DNA of 44,809 nucleotides, taken from contig JADLAB010000118.1 in the NCBI GenBank assembly GCA_020848455.1, positions 1 to 44,809 of the forward strand, written 5' to 3'. The stretch comes from Polyangiaceae bacterium (lineage in GTDB: Bacteria; Myxococcota_A; Polyangia; Polyangiales; Polyangiaceae). Numbering within the stretch: the first letter of the stretch is position 1; every line of letters begins with the position of its first letter. Shown here piece after piece: positions 11,510 to 37,686 of this stretch. Position numbers and translations under genes: made by a program. The notes under the pieces are model-generated. The model was not told the origin of the DNA and searched no databases. It saw only the letters and a list, made by a program, of their open reading frames with translations.

Positions 11510-12247
11510 GTGATCCGTCTCGAGGGCGTGTGCAAGAGCTTCGGCGGCGTGCCGGTGCTGCGCGGCGTCGACCTCGAGGTGCCCAAGGGCTGCCTCTACG
11601 GCCTCATCGGTCCCGGCGCCGCCGGCAAGAGCGTGCTGCTCAAGATCGTGACCGGCCTGTTGCGCCCCGACCGCGGCCGCGTGGTCGTCGACGGGCGCGA
11701 CATCTTCGCCATGAGCGAGCTCGAGCTGCAGCAGTTCCGCTCGCAGATGGGCATGCAGTTCCAGAACAACGCGCTCTTCGACTACATGACGGTCGGCGAG
11801 AACGTCGCCTTTCCGCTGCGCCGCCTGTCGAACCTCGCCGAGCCCGAGATCGCGGCGCGCGTGGCCGAGCGGCTGGAGCGCGTGGCCCTGCCGGGCTACG
11901 AGACGCGCCTGCCGGCCGGTCTGTCGGGCGGCCAGAAGAAGCGCGTGGGCGTGGCGCGCGCCACGGTGACGCGCGCGGCCATCGTGCTCTACGACGAGCC
12001 GGCCGCCGGCCTCGACCCGGTGACCTCGCAGCGCATCTTCGAGATGCTGCGCGGCGAGCAGCGCGAGAGCGGCGCCACCGCGCTCATGGTGTCGAGCGAT
12101 CTCGACCGCATGCTGTCGGTCACCGACCGCGTGGGCATGCTCTACAAGGGCGAGCTCATCTTCGACGGCACGACCGCCGAGGCGCAGGCGGCCGAGGAGC
12201 CGCGCGTGCGCCAGTTCGTGCACGGTCTGACCGAGGGTCCGCTCTAG
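11510..12247 (+). CDS. ABC transporter ATPase, MlaF/Mce-type lipid transport family
   Basis: A 245-residue ATPase starting at GTG 11510, of the size expected for MlaF-like proteins. Walker A is GPGAAGKS (34-41), followed by a Q-loop (MQFQNNALFDYMT, 82-94), the signature LSGGQKKR (138-145) and Walker B IVLYDEPAAGLDP (158-170). The QNNALFD Q-loop and the early signature resemble the Mla/Ttg2 retrograde phospholipid transport family. The H-loop, normally (T/S)HD, reads VSSD with Ser196 (AGC at 12095-12097) where the switch His is expected. No MlaE permease or MlaD/Mce gene is present nearby, so partners must be encoded elsewhere. Its stop codon TAG begins a 13-nt sequence shared with the terminal repeat of the element at 36721. 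Confidence 0.85.
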   Translation: MIRLEGVCKSFGGVPVLRGVDLEVPKGCLYGLIGPGAAGKSVLLKIVTGLLRPDRGRVVVDGRDIFAMSELELQQFRSQMGMQFQNNALFDYMTVGENVAFPLRRLSNLAEPEIAARVAERLERVALPGYETRLPAGLSGGQKKRVGVARATVTRAAIVLYDEPAAGLDPVTSQRIFEMLRGEQRESGATALMVSSDLDRMLSVTDRVGMLYKGELIFDGTTAEAQAAEEPRVRQFVHGLTEGPL

Positions 12248-12257
12248 AGCACCGAAC
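12245..12257 (+). repeat. Partial copy of the terminal inverted repeat of the element at 36721-36900
   Basis: TAGAGCACCGAAC is identical to the first 13 nt of the left arm at 36721; with the preceding C the match is 14 nt. As there, the TAG is the stop codon of the upstream gene and the site lies between convergent genes. Confidence 0.5.
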
Positions 12258-12267
12258 CGAACACGAG

Positions 12268-15200
12268 TCAGAGCTGCGCCAGCATCTCGCGCGCGTCCTG
12301 GTAGATGAGCTCGTGGCCGTGCTCGGCCGCCATCTCCTGCACGCGCACGAGCAGGGGCCGCGCCTGCGCGCTCCGGCCGGTGGCGTGGAGCACGCGCGCG
12401 AGCAGGAAGCGCCCCTCGAGCACGTCCCAGAGAAAGCCGGAGCCGTCGGCCTGGCGGATCAGCGCCTTCAGCTGCTCCTCGGCGCCCGCGTGCCCCTTGA
12501 GCGCCTCGAGCGCGCACAGGTGCATCTGGTTCAGGTTCGAGAGCCGCTCGTGGTCGAGCGCCTTGGCGAACTCGAAGGACTCGACGAACGCGGCGTAGGC
12601 GCGCCCCATGTCCCCGAGCCGGTCGCAGGCGTCGCCGAGGTTGTGCAGCGCCGCGGCCGCCTCGTAGCGCAGGCCCGCGATGCGAGCCAGGTCGGCGAGC
12701 TTGGCCGCCTCGCGCGCCACGGCCTGGAAGTCGCGCAGGTTGAAGTAAATGAGCGCGCGGTGCTTCTGGCGCGCCACGGCCTCGACGGGGTCGCCGGAGC
12801 GCCCGAGCGCGTCGGCGCGGTCCATGTGCTCGAGCGCGCGCTCGCAGCGTCCGGTCGAGGCGCGCACCTGCGACAGCAAGAGGAGCGTCGCCACGTCCTC
12901 GGCCGGGCCGAGCGCCTCGAGGCGGTCCGCCGCCGCGGCTCCCTGCGTGAACAGCCCCTTGCGCAGGCTCACCTCGATCTCGGTGCGCAGCGCCGCGCGC
13001 TCGAGGCCCACCTCGCCGCCGGTGTCCGCCCGCGCCTCCTCGAGCACGCGGTAGGCGTCGTCGAACTGGTTGATGGCGCCGAGCGCTCCGGCCGCCGCAA
13101 TGCCGGCGCGCGCGCGCAGCCGCGGCTCGCCGCGCGCCTGGATCTGGCGCAGGGCCGGCAGGACGGCGTCCTTCAACCCAGGTGCGGCGCGGACGCGCGT
13201 GGCTGCCTCGGCGAGCTGCACCAGCCAGTTGCACAGCTCCTCGACGCTGCGGTCGCGCAGGTCCGCGAGCTCGAGCGTGCGCTGCATGGTGCGCAGCGCC
13301 GCCTCGAGCTGGCCCGCACCCAGCTTCTCCTCGGCCGCCTGCCAGAAGTACTGCGAGGCGAGGCGCCGGTCGCCGGCGTCGAACAGGTGCTCGGCGATGC
13401 GCTCGAGCGTCTCGCCGCTCGGACCGACGAAGGTGGCGTCGCGCCCCACGCCACCCTCGCCGTAGCGCGCCTGCATGTACACGTGCGCGGCCGTCGCATG
13501 CAGCTCCTGGCGCGCCACGGGCGCCATCGCGGCGAGCACGATCTCGCGGTAGAGCGGCGACGCGAAGCGCACCTTCGTGGGACCGGTGCGCCGCACCAGG
13601 CCCTTCTGGCCGAGCACCGCGATGAGCTGATCGAGCGCCGGCAACGAGCGCTTCACGGTGGCCGCGAGCACCGGCGTGAGGGCGGGCTCCCCCAGGATCG
13701 CGATGCCCTGCAGCACGCGCCGCTCGCGCTCGGGCAAGCGGCTCACGCGCGACGCGACCAGGTTCTTCAGCGTGCGCGGCGCCGCGGTCGAGAGCTCCGG
13801 CGGTGCGGTGAGGGCCGCCCCGCCGAGCGCGCCGAGCTCGCCGTTCTCGGCGATCTCGCGCAGCAGCTCCTCGACGAACAGCGGATGGCCGCCCGCGTAG
13901 TTGCGCACGTAGCCGAGCACGCCCGGCGGCACGCTGCGCTGGTCGAGCTGGACCTCGAGCAGCTTGCCCGTCTCGCGCTCGCCGAGCTCGCCGAGCTCGA
14001 GGTCGTGCACGCCCGGAAGACTGGCGAGCACCGCCGGCACCTCGCCGCGCTGCGCCAGGATGAACACCGCCCGCGCGCCCGCGCTCGGCGGGGTCGTCGC
14101 GCCCGGGGCGGCCGAGGGTGGGCTCGCGCGCCCGAAGATGCGCGCGATGGCAGCCAGGCTCTCGAAGTCCGCGGCCTGGGCGTCGTCCCAGGCGAAGCAG
14201 TGCAGCCGGTCGCGGCACAGGCTGAACACCATGCGCTCGAAGCCCGAGCGGATCGCCGCGCTCGTCTCGCCGGCCGCGGTGCGCGTCGGGGCGCCGAGCA
14301 GGTGCAGGATCGCCGCCACCTCGGCCTCGGGCAGGCCGAGCGCGCGCAGCCGCGGCGCCACCTCGAGGATGCGCCCCGGATCGTCGTCCTCCTCGGTGCC
14401 GCAGAGCACGTGCAGCATCGCCCGCAGCGCGCTCCACGGAACGGTGGCGCCGTTGAGCGGACAGGACGCGGTGTAGAAGGCCACGTTGAACTGCCCGCGC
14501 TCCAGCCGGCGGCGCGCCTCGAGCAACAAGCGGCTCTTGCCGATGCCGGTCTCGCCACGCACGACGGCGAGCTGCGGCACCTGGCGCGTCGCCGCCGCCA
14601 TGATCGCCCCCAGGCGCTTGAGCTCGTCGTGGCGCCCGACGAAGCGCACCCGCGGCCGGTCGCTCGGCTGCGCGCTCTTGACCACCACGGCGCCGTCGAC
14701 CAGGCGGCGCGCGTCGGGCAGCGCCTCGGTCACGAAGGTGCGCCGCACCAGCCGGCCGGTGATGGGCGACAGCGCCACGCTGCCCTCCGCGGCGCGCGCC
14801 AGGCTCTGCGCGGTCGCGACCAGGGCCGCCAGCCGCTCGTCGGCGATGGGGATCCCGCCCATGTCGACCGAGATGGAGCCGCAGTGCACCCCCGCCGCGG
14901 GCACGACGCCGGCGCCGCGCGAGCGCACCAGCACGAGCGCGGCACGCACGGCTGCCTCGGCGTCGCGCCCATCGGTGTCGCCGAGCCCGAAGATCGCGAC
15001 GAGCTGCGAGCCCGTCTCTTCGTGGATCCAGGCGCCGTGGCGCTCGAGCAGCTGCCGCATGCGCCCGCGCGCGACGTCGCTCTCGCGCGCGGGGAAGGCC
15101 ACCACCACGGCGCTCACGTCGCGGCGCTCGCCGCGCGGCGCGAGCCCGTCGCGCGCCTCCGGGGGCGGGCCGGAGCCGCGCGGGATCTCGACCGGCGTCG

Positions 15201-34792: not shown

Positions 34793-35398
34793 ATGCTGCT
34801 GTCCGTCCATCGCGACCACCCCGAGCCTCGCAAGATTGCCCGCGCCGCCGAGGTGTTGGGCAACGGCGGCCTCATCGCCTACCCCACCGACACGGTGTAC
34901 GGCCTCGGCTGCGACCTGATGAACAAGCAGGCCATCGAGGAGCTGCACATGCTCAAGGCCATGGCCAAGGGCAAGCCCCTGTCCTTCATCTGCCCGGATC
35001 TGTCGGACATCGCGCGCTACGCCGTCGTCGACAACGCCACCTACCGCGTGCTGCGGCACCACCTGCCGGGCCCCTACACCTTCGTGCTGCAGGCGACGCG
35101 CGAGGTGCCGAAGATCGCCATGACCCGGCAGAAGACTGTGGGCATCCGCGTGCCGGACCACCCGGTGACGCAGGCCCTGGTGCGCGCCCTCGGTCGGCCG
35201 CTCATCAACACCACGGCGAGCCGCGACGGCGAGGAGCCGCTCATCGACCCCTGGGAGATCCAGGAGCGCTACCCGACGCTCGACCTCGTCATCGACTGCG
35301 AGACGGGCGGCCTCGAGCCGACCACCATCGTCGATCTGTCGACCGGTGAGGTGCGGGTGCTGCGCGAGGGCGCGGGCCCCATCGACGAGCTCGTGTGA
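34793..35398 (+). CDS. YciO-type member of the Sua5/YciO/YrdC family
   Basis: A 201-residue protein, size and sequence closest to YciO (GGLIAYPTDTVYGLGCD, GKPLSFICPDLSDIARYAVVDN, GPYTFVLQATREVPK, TVGIRVPDHPVTQAL, PTTIVDLS). The related TsaC/Sua5 enzymes make threonylcarbamoyl-AMP for tRNA t6A. The YciO branch has the same nucleotide-binding fold but its role is not settled. It starts 17 nt after atpG and its stop overlaps the next start (GTGA), so it is read as part of the same transcription unit. Confidence 0.85.
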   Translation: MLLSVHRDHPEPRKIARAAEVLGNGGLIAYPTDTVYGLGCDLMNKQAIEELHMLKAMAKGKPLSFICPDLSDIARYAVVDNATYRVLRHHLPGPYTFVLQATREVPKIAMTRQKTVGIRVPDHPVTQALVRALGRPLINTTASRDGEEPLIDPWEIQERYPTLDLVIDCETGGLEPTTIVDLSTGEVRVLREGAGPIDELV

Positions 35399-36723
35399 GC
35401 TCGATGGCGACGTCGCGACCGAGCGAGCGACCTCGGCCACGGCGCCTGCGCCGGGTGGGCGCCGCGCTCGCGTGCACGCTGCTCGGCGCCTGCCAGACCC
35501 CTCCGGCGCCGCTCTCCGTGCCACCGCCGGGCCCGTCGGCGGCGGTCGTCGGGCGGGTCGCGGCGAGCGCGAGCTCGGGCGCGCCGGCGGCGCCGGGCCC
35601 GGTCGCGCCCCCCGCTCCTGCGCCGCTCGAGGGGCGCGACTTCGGCGCCGAGGCGCGCTTGCTCCAGCGGGTAGCCGCCTGCGCGGGCGCGGACGCACTG
35701 CCACCGGAGCTCGACGCCGGCGCCGTCGAGCGGCACTGCGCCGCGCTCGGCCCGAAGCTCACGAGCTTCCGCGCGCACCTCGGCAAGGTGCGCGACTTCG
35801 TCGCGGGCGTCGAGCCCCCCACCCTGCCGACGACCGTCGTGTACCCCTTCGCCGGGGGAGACGTCGCGACGGCGCTCGCGGTCTACCCGCGCGCCGGGGA
35901 GCTCACGACCTTGTCGCTCGAGCTCGCCGGCGACCCGCGGCGCCTCGGCGGGCTCGGCGCGGCCGCGCTCGACCGCAGCCTCGCCGCGCTGCGCCGCCAG
36001 CTCGACGAGCTGCTCGCGACGAGCAGCTTCAGCTTCAGCGACACGCTCAAGTTCACGCAGCACGGCGACATCCCCGGGGAAATCGCCTTCGTCCTCGTGG
36101 GGCTCGCGCTCCACGACCGCGAGCCCGTCCACATGCGCTTCTTCCGCCTCGAGCCCGACGGCCGGGTGCGGTACCTCTCGGACGAGGACATCAGCGCCGC
36201 CGACGGCACCGTGGCGGCGCGCCGCAAGGAGAGCTGGTTCCCACCCGACTTCTCCGAGGCGTTCGCCAACGTCGAGATCGCCCACCGCGCTCGGGCGGCC
36301 GCAGACGCGGCACCGCTCGCCATCCACCGGCACGTGGCCGCGAACCTCGGCGACGCCGCGCTCGCCGACAACGGTGCGCTCCTGTTGCACCTCGCCGCCA
36401 AGGGCCCGGTCGCCGTGCTCGTCAAGGCCTCGAGCTACCTCCTGTGGGGTCCGGGCTTCGACCTCGTGCGCGACTATCTCACGGGTCACATGGCCTTCGG
36501 CATCTCGGACAGCTCGGGCCTGCTCCCGGAGGTCGCCACGCGGGCGGGCTTCGTCCTCGAGACCTACGGGTCCTTCCTCGGCACGCGCATCCCCGCGAGC
36601 GGCGCCGGGACCCGTGCCATGGTGGCCCTGTTCCGCGCCGGGCCCGCGCGCCCCCTGCCGTTTCGCTTCGGCTACGTCGACACCTCGAGCCGGCCGAGCC
36701 TCATCGTCGCGCGCAAGCCCTAG
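35395..36723 (+). CDS. Predicted lipoprotein of unknown function
   Basis: A 442-residue protein with an Arg-rich n-region, hydrophobic stretch and lipobox LLGAC (Cys33), then a Pro/Ala linker to about residue 80. The remainder is a mixed alpha/beta domain I do not recognise. It includes VVYPFAGGDVATALAVYP (near 143), which resembles the PFSGPDI-like motif of some exported myxobacterial proteins, and SYLLWGPGFDLVRDYL near 345. GTG 35395 overlaps the YciO stop by 4 nt; ATG 35404 is an equally possible start that leaves the signal intact. Its TAG stop is the first three bases of the inverted-repeat element at 36721. Confidence 0.75.
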   Translation: MSSMATSRPSERPRPRRLRRVGAALACTLLGACQTPPAPLSVPPPGPSAAVVGRVAASASSGAPAAPGPVAPPAPAPLEGRDFGAEARLLQRVAACAGADALPPELDAGAVERHCAALGPKLTSFRAHLGKVRDFVAGVEPPTLPTTVVYPFAGGDVATALAVYPRAGELTTLSLELAGDPRRLGGLGAAALDRSLAALRRQLDELLATSSFSFSDTLKFTQHGDIPGEIAFVLVGLALHDREPVHMRFFRLEPDGRVRYLSDEDISAADGTVAARRKESWFPPDFSEAFANVEIAHRARAAADAAPLAIHRHVAANLGDAALADNGALLLHLAAKGPVAVLVKASSYLLWGPGFDLVRDYLTGHMAFGISDSSGLLPEVATRAGFVLETYGSFLGTRIPASGAGTRAMVALFRAGPARPLPFRFGYVDTSSRPSLIVARKP

Positions 36724-36900
36724 AGCACCGAACAGGTTGAGAACGTCGCGAAATCCGTGAGGTGGCGTGAGGTTTGCGTCGTACGGACTGGAGGGCGACG
36801 CAGGCGTACTGCTGCTACGTCGAGGAGCCCGGAGGGAGTTTGGCGCGAAGATCGCGCAAGATCGCGGATTGCAGCAGGTTTCAACCTGTTCGGTGCGCTA
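36721..36900. repeat. 180-bp MITE/REP-like element with 20-bp terminal inverted repeats, located between convergent genes
   Basis: The left arm TAGAGCACCGAACAGGTTGA (36721-36740) and the complement of the right arm (36881-36900) match at 19 of 20 positions. Further in, AATCCGTGAGG... on the left also pairs imperfectly with the complement of the right side, so the whole element could fold into a long imperfect hairpin. Each half contains a short direct repeat of about 10 nt (CGTGAGGT twice; AAGATCGCG twice or nearly). The TAG at each end is the stop codon of the adjacent gene (lipoprotein on plus, TauE on minus). No open frame for a transposase is present. It could be a non-autonomous mobile element or a dispersed bidirectional terminator. 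Part of the arm recurs at 12245. Confidence 0.75.
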
Positions 36901-37686
36901 GGGGCCGTGCCGCCCGAGGCGCTGCCAGGCGAGCGCCACGCCGATGGCGAGTCCGATCCCGACCACCACCCAGCGCACGAGCGAGGCGCGCACGCGGCGC
37001 GCGCCCGCCGCACCGAAGAGGCCGCCCGCGATCGCCCCGAGCGCCATCGCGCCGGCGGGGACGGGCTCGACGACGCCCGCGATCACGAACGCGACGCACG
37101 CGGCCGAGTTGACGACGGCCGAGACGAGCGTCTTGACGCCGTTCATGCGGTGCAGATCGCGCCCGCCGAGCCAGCCGTAGAGCGCGAGCAAGAGGATGCC
37201 GAGCCCGGCCCCGAAGTAGCCGCCGTAGACGCCCGCCGCGAAGTGGCCGAGGTGCGGCAGGACGAGCGGCCGTGGCAGCTGCCACGGCGCGGTGGCGCTC
37301 GCCTCCACGCTGGCGGCGGGCCGGCGCAGGTTCGGGATTAGGAGCAGGCCCGTCGCCCCGAGCACCAGCACCGGGACGGCCGCGTCGAACCACGCGGCGG
37401 GCGTCGCGAGCAAGAGCAGCGAGCCCGCGATGCCGCCGAGCAGCGCCGAGGGCAGGAGCGCCGCCACGACCGCCCGGTCGCGCCCGAGCTCGCGCCGGTA
37501 GGCCCAGGCCGAGGCGAGCTGCCCCGGGAAGAGCGCCACGGCGTTGGTGGCGTTGGCGACGAGGGGCGGCAGGCCGGCCGCGAGCGCGGCGGGGAACGAC
37601 AGGAGCGTGCCCCCGCCCGCCACGGCGTTGACGGCCCCCGCGACGGCACTCACGAGCGCGAGCAGAGCGAGGTCGACCGCGTCCAC
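36898..37686 (-). CDS. Sulfite exporter TauE/SafE family permease
   Basis: A 262-residue integral membrane protein with about eight hydrophobic helices. The family sequence GAVNAVAGGGTLLSFPAALAAGLPPLVANATNAVALFPGQLA near the N-terminus and its weaker repeat FAAGVYGGYFGAGLGILLL in the middle are diagnostic. Members move sulfur-containing anions or other organic anions across the inner membrane; the substrate is not predictable. The start at 37686 is 24 nt downstream of the zinc-ribbon protein gene's stop, so the two may be co-transcribed. Its TAG stop lies in the right arm of the inverted-repeat element. Confidence 0.9.
   Translation of the reverse strand: MDAVDLALLALVSAVAGAVNAVAGGGTLLSFPAALAAGLPPLVANATNAVALFPGQLASAWAYRRELGRDRAVVAALLPSALLGGIAGSLLLLATPAAWFDAAVPVLVLGATGLLLIPNLRRPAASVEASATAPWQLPRPLVLPHLGHFAAGVYGGYFGAGLGILLLALYGWLGGRDLHRMNGVKTLVSAVVNSAACVAFVIAGVVEPVPAGAMALGAIAGGLFGAAGARRVRASLVRWVVVGIGLAIGVALAWQRLGRHGP

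Follow-up and report, generated by a model that had tools for sequence, protein, structure and literature searches.

ERIC, RUP and Correia-type elements are non-coding, palindromic repeats of ~100–150 bp that lie between genes, and a TA duplication has been reported for several of them; going by their descriptions, their hosts and sequences differ from those of the element studied here.

MITEPsy1 of Pseudomonas syringae is described, in the sections of the source that deal with it, as a 100-nt non-coding element with 18-nt terminal inverted repeats and a 4-bp duplication at CTAG or YTAA, which its authors linked to ISPsy2, listed as 'IS5?' (PMC3189936). GTAG-REPs are palindromic repeats of 20–40 bp that carry a GTAG tag at one end and are associated with RAYT tyrosine transposases. 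They lie mostly downstream of genes or between convergent genes, and their ends often give the TAG stop of the flanking genes (PMC3733652).

We analysed a 44,809-nucleotide stretch (hereafter the window) of a Polyangiaceae bacterium (GCA_020848455.1, contig JADLAB010000118.1), whose genome (G000) is a draft of 9.2 Mb in 742 contigs, 96.5% complete and with 74% GC. Between two convergent genes, the window holds a block that is very probably one copy of a MITE family targeting CTAG. The block has 17-bp inverted repeats, a gene-less and hairpin-forming interior, many copies and a flanking duplication. The family is new; it belongs to a known sort of element, since CTAG-duplicating MITEs and GTAG-REP ends that provide TAG stops have already been described. 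It resembles MITEPsy1 in being short and non-coding, with inverted repeats and a 4-bp CTAG duplication, but the terminal repeat of MITEPsy1, GGAAGGTCTGAAAAAGCC, is unrelated, and the sections of the source on MITEPsy1 describe no link to stop codons, whereas the element in the window sits at stops (PMC3189936). Unlike GTAG-REPs, it is 182 bp long, carries CTAG and 17-bp inverted repeats at both ends and is flanked by a target duplication.

Organization of the element in the window

The element, its flanking genes and a related short match are located as follows.

35395–36723, plus strand: gene A, without a Pfam match; its orthologue in the congener G001 is 95% identical and element-free
36720–36901, plus strand: whole element with the duplicated target, 182 bp (174 bp plus CTAG at each end)
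36720–36723, no strand: left target copy CTAG, in which TAG at 36721–36723 is the stop of gene A
36724–36740, plus strand: left terminal inverted repeat AGCACCGAACAGGTTGA, from arm complementarity and pattern match
36790–36831, plus strand: core GGAGGGCGACGCAGGCGTAC...CGTCGAGGAGCCCG, common to elements of genome G025 that have other ends
36881–36897, minus strand: right terminal inverted repeat CGCACCGAACAGGTTGA, from arm complementarity and pattern match
36898–36901, no strand: right target copy CTAG, whose minus-strand TAG is the stop of gene B
36898–37686, minus strand: gene B, TauE/SafE family; in G001 it ends at a TGA two codons earlier
12244–12257, plus strand: probable decayed single end CTAGAGCACCGAAC, at the stop of an ABC ATPase gene

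From left to right, positions 36720–36901 read CTAG, AGCACCGAACAGGTTGA, a 140-bp interior, TCAACCTGTTCGGTGCG and CTAG. The terminal repeats have the consensus (A/C)GCACCGAACAGGTTGA. The arms at 36718–36740 and 36881–36903 are 96% complementary across 23 nt, and the terminal-repeat pattern matched twice in the window against zero matches expected from shuffles. An earlier note on this DNA had described a 180-bp block with 20-bp inverted repeats (19/20). Block and repeats are both real, but we prefer the bounds 36720–36901 because the flanking tetramer is CTAG on both sides, and we delimit the repeats to 17 bp with CTAG outside them. The in-frame TAG noted at each end of the block was confirmed: gene A ends at TAG 36721–36723 and gene B at the minus-strand TAG 36898–36900, so that the two CTAGs are the stops of both convergent genes. 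Gene calling placed no gene in the 174 bp between the flanking CTAGs, and the element had no match among Rfam models or in the plasmids, phages and viral contigs searched.

The earlier note also pointed to a 13-nt copy at 12245, and this copy is real. CTAG at 12244–12247, followed by AGCACCGAAC, closes the ABC ATPase gene (11510–12247, plus strand), which faces a convergent gene ending at 12268. For the 14-mer at 12244–12257, chance would give ~0.01 occurrences in 445 kb of the same genome; it was found there three times, namely at 12244 and at both ends of the element. Since the match at 12244 does not reach beyond base 10 of the terminal repeat, it can be no more than a decayed single end of the family, and probably is one.

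Copies in the same genome and in related genomes

A single copy would have spoken against a dispersed element, according to the earlier note; we found five full copies in G000, 93–99.5% alike (0.5–7% of positions differ), and 12 partial sites. Three of the partial sites are short hairpins of 50–59 bp whose two ends lie almost next to each other (C3, C373 and C493), and nine are truncated or single ends (C127, C478, C629, C576, C244, C308, C368, C421 and C145); an additional diverged copy lies at C632.

Of the order's 183 genomes, 17 contain the terminal repeat, where it encloses several unrelated interiors, and one genome of the Byssovorax sp. lineage (G004) has 25 exact ends. The ends are shared by 54 named records. 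Every one with an identified lineage is of the Myxococcales type, the records being MAGs labelled Myxococcales, Polyangiaceae, Byssovorax or Sorangium, with a few bearing no label beyond 'uncultured delta proteobacterium' or 'uncultured bacterium'. The family occurs in Polyangiaceae and neighbouring families.

Other repeats were seen in the same genome. A further dispersed and partly palindromic repeat, ACTCGGCTCCAGCGTGACGTGGCTTCGGGCCACG, follows several gene ends or CTAGs together with its variants (L003:1678–1720, L220:6740–6772, L221:3187–3225, L219:18872–18910, and L227 near 9159 and 13700), and short tandem repeats of the CAGTTGTCAGTTCTCAGTT type stand directly downstream of genes, after their stop codons, in L226 and L232.

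CTAG as a target duplication and element-free sites

When the repeat was searched without CTAG, all 20 matches in G000 (with at most one mismatch) were preceded by CTAG, and the same was true of 47 among the 60 distinct ends in the order as a whole. The flanking tetramers were identical in 33 of 40 distinct two-ended elements and unequal in the other seven; three of the 33 read CTGG...CTGG in direct orientation. CTAG, and rarely CTGG, thus has the behaviour of a target duplication of 4 bp. Had just the 2-bp TA within a preferred CTAG been duplicated, CTAG sites would show the same sequence; only the CTGG cases point to 4 bp or to a relaxed target.

In the congener G001, the element was absent from all 11 comparable orthologous sites, in line with the earlier note's proposal to look for empty sites in relatives. 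A stop codon was already present at each of the 11, as CTAG at five, GTAG at four (C119 gene A, C629, C308 and C3) and TGA at two (C96 and C373). CTAG stops without the element were seen at C127b, C576, C478 and C159, and the empty site of C493 is a single CTAG that serves as the common stop of two convergent genes. At the six of 11 sites where G001 has GTAG or TGA, we infer the sequence that preceded insertion. The flanking genes thus had stops before the element arrived; the duplication preserved or re-created them and altered the stop codon in a few genes, TAG having replaced TGA at C96, at C373 and in gene B of the window. What the earlier note took for a supply of stop codons is hence mostly their re-creation by the palindromic 4-bp duplication.

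The CTAG may instead be part of the terminal repeat of an element that moves without duplication, as REP elements moved by HUH (Y1) transposases do. CTAG is its own reverse complement, so that most copies fit both readings, and TIR families linked to Y1-type transposases have been described (PMC3733652). We regard this reading as highly improbable. The direct CTGG...CTGG of three elements argues for duplication, since a terminal inverted repeat would not yield a direct repeat, and the empty sites in G001 hold a single CTAG. Moreover, the Y1 (RAYT) transposase model PF01797 had no match in G000 (draft, 96.5% complete), and no such transposase with these ends was found in seven other carriers.

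The empty sites also bear on the bidirectional terminator that the earlier note had considered, and more generally on whether gene-end copies are kept as such terminators or as 3'-end stabilisers between convergent genes. The element folds as a very stable hairpin (z -8 to -10; a 56-bp hairpin version reaches -44 kcal/mol, z -11), and its copies are placed between gene ends. However, the T-run is absent after every stem, and a scan of 36300–37300 for intrinsic terminators (GC-rich hairpin plus T-run) found none. Single ends, which make up more than half of the sites in G000, cannot form the hairpin, and G001 does without the element at the 11 orthologous sites. A role of this kind is thus very unlikely. 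Compensatory changes lay mostly within the terminal repeats, which must match anyway, and are therefore no proof of an RNA role.

Rarity of CTAG and association with gene ends

Background CTAGs were collected from the window and 20 stretches of 20 kb from the same genome (445 kb), with genes called by our own simple codon-usage script. CTAG occurred 87 times, whereas trinucleotide frequencies predict 445 occurrences and base composition 1024; it is thus under-represented 5–12-fold. The 83 background CTAGs comprised 30 gene stops (36%), 38 other non-coding and 15 coding occurrences, in DNA that is 91% coding. As CTAG is rare and often a stop or non-coding, an element inserting at CTAG will mostly be found at stops and in gaps. 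Under a Markov model of the same 74% GC genome (the window and L213–L232), CTAG was ~5-fold rarer and GTAG 1.5-fold commoner than expected.

The flanking CTAG was the stop of the adjoining gene at 14 of the 17 sites in G000, and C368 would be a 15th, its CTAG being mutated and its gene now ending inside the repeat. Compared with 29 of 67 non-coding CTAGs, this is an excess (p 0.006 for 14/17; p 0.0009 for 15/17): 82–88% of the sites lay at stops, where CTAG targeting by itself would put 43%. The five full copies alone (4/5 at stops) showed no significant excess. Convergent pairs flanked nine of 16 sites, against 19% of gene pairs (p 0.0015) and 14 of 67 non-coding CTAGs (p 0.01). In other genomes, a called stop adjoined 16 of 60 sites, compared with 9 of 78 background CTAGs (p 0.03). 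The earlier note's view of a dispersed non-autonomous element biased toward stops is supported, but the specificity is for CTAG and not for stops as such.

We consider the stop association mainly a by-product of CTAG targeting, with a modest excess at stops remaining, which probably reflects survivorship, harmful insertions elsewhere having been lost. These excesses, in G000 (p 0.001–0.006), at convergent pairs and in other genomes, could also mean that the element prefers stops or convergent gene ends themselves beyond CTAG, for example through a DNA structure linked to termination. We think this unlikely: the numbers are small and come from a simple gene caller of our own, survivorship yields an identical pattern, 44 of the 60 sites in other genomes have no adjoining called stop, and the full copies taken by themselves show no significant excess.

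Under CTAG targeting by a MITE, a transposase acting in trans would recognise the terminal repeats and insert them at CTAG. This GC-rich genome strongly avoids that word, and over one third of the remaining occurrences are a gene-ending TAG. The duplicated word being CTAG on both strands, copies would come to lie at gene ends and could end two convergent genes at once; a TAG would close the gene on each side, and the insertion would be harmless. Loss of harmful insertions elsewhere would add to this bias.

Search for an autonomous parent

The surroundings of PF01609, PF13358, PF13546 and PF01797 genes in eight carrier genomes contained no element with these ends; G000 itself had no match to any of the four models, and no recognisable transposase was seen by eye in the open reading frames beside 17 further single ends. 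Two candidates were rejected. A 1.5-kb element in G162 (L133:2651–4151) is bounded by the same terminal repeats and has a decayed transposase-like reading frame inside; by eye it holds an apparent IS1182-type transposase fragment, and it is apparently a second, unrelated IS that is nested within a MITE copy. In G035, which carries the MITE, an IS701-family element (PF13546; L304:676–2086) has CTAG on both sides, as the MITE does, but CACTACTCCGCCATTTTT, with which it begins and ends as inverted repeat, bears no relation to the ends of the MITE.

Mosaic of ends and cores

The odd part of the family, and the best lead, is its mosaicism: one terminal repeat surrounds unrelated interiors, and one core is found under different ends. 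The interiors fall into several groups (G000, G001 and G043; G030, G035, G026 and G176; G004; G017; G105; and G100), whose mutual resemblance does not exceed that of shuffles; one short match of 21 nt links the G000 and G030 interiors. In G000, G001 and G043, conservation is higher in the interior than in the terminal repeats, and the ends of the G043 element have diverged.

The 42-bp core at 36790–36831 is identical at 41 of 43 aligned positions to the core of elements in G025, a genome of another genus. These elements have GAGAGGGTGTTTCACAG as their ends, and their flanks point to a TNA duplication of 3 bp. G025 carries this second MITE, ~120 bp long and with flanks suggestive of a TCA/TGA duplication, in at least six copies (L058, L063, L067, L069, L072 and L074), the core being nearly identical to that in the window. 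A core 14-mer had matches in many genomes, about as frequent as those of a reversed control; only G000 and G025 have five copies of it. It is doubtful that the internal hairpin core is a unit moving between transposons; if it were, it could be a cis-acting site or a small RNA with a function for the host or in helping different transposases to mobilise elements.

Implications

To judge from the mosaic, a MITE may have its interior from a source other than the element that its ends come from. The family also offers a simple, testable rule for settling harmlessly and exactly at gene ends: choose a target word that is palindromic, seldom found within genes and often used as a stop, and then duplicate it. 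For annotators, it is a warning that some TAG stops in these genomes are the marks of mobile-element insertion.
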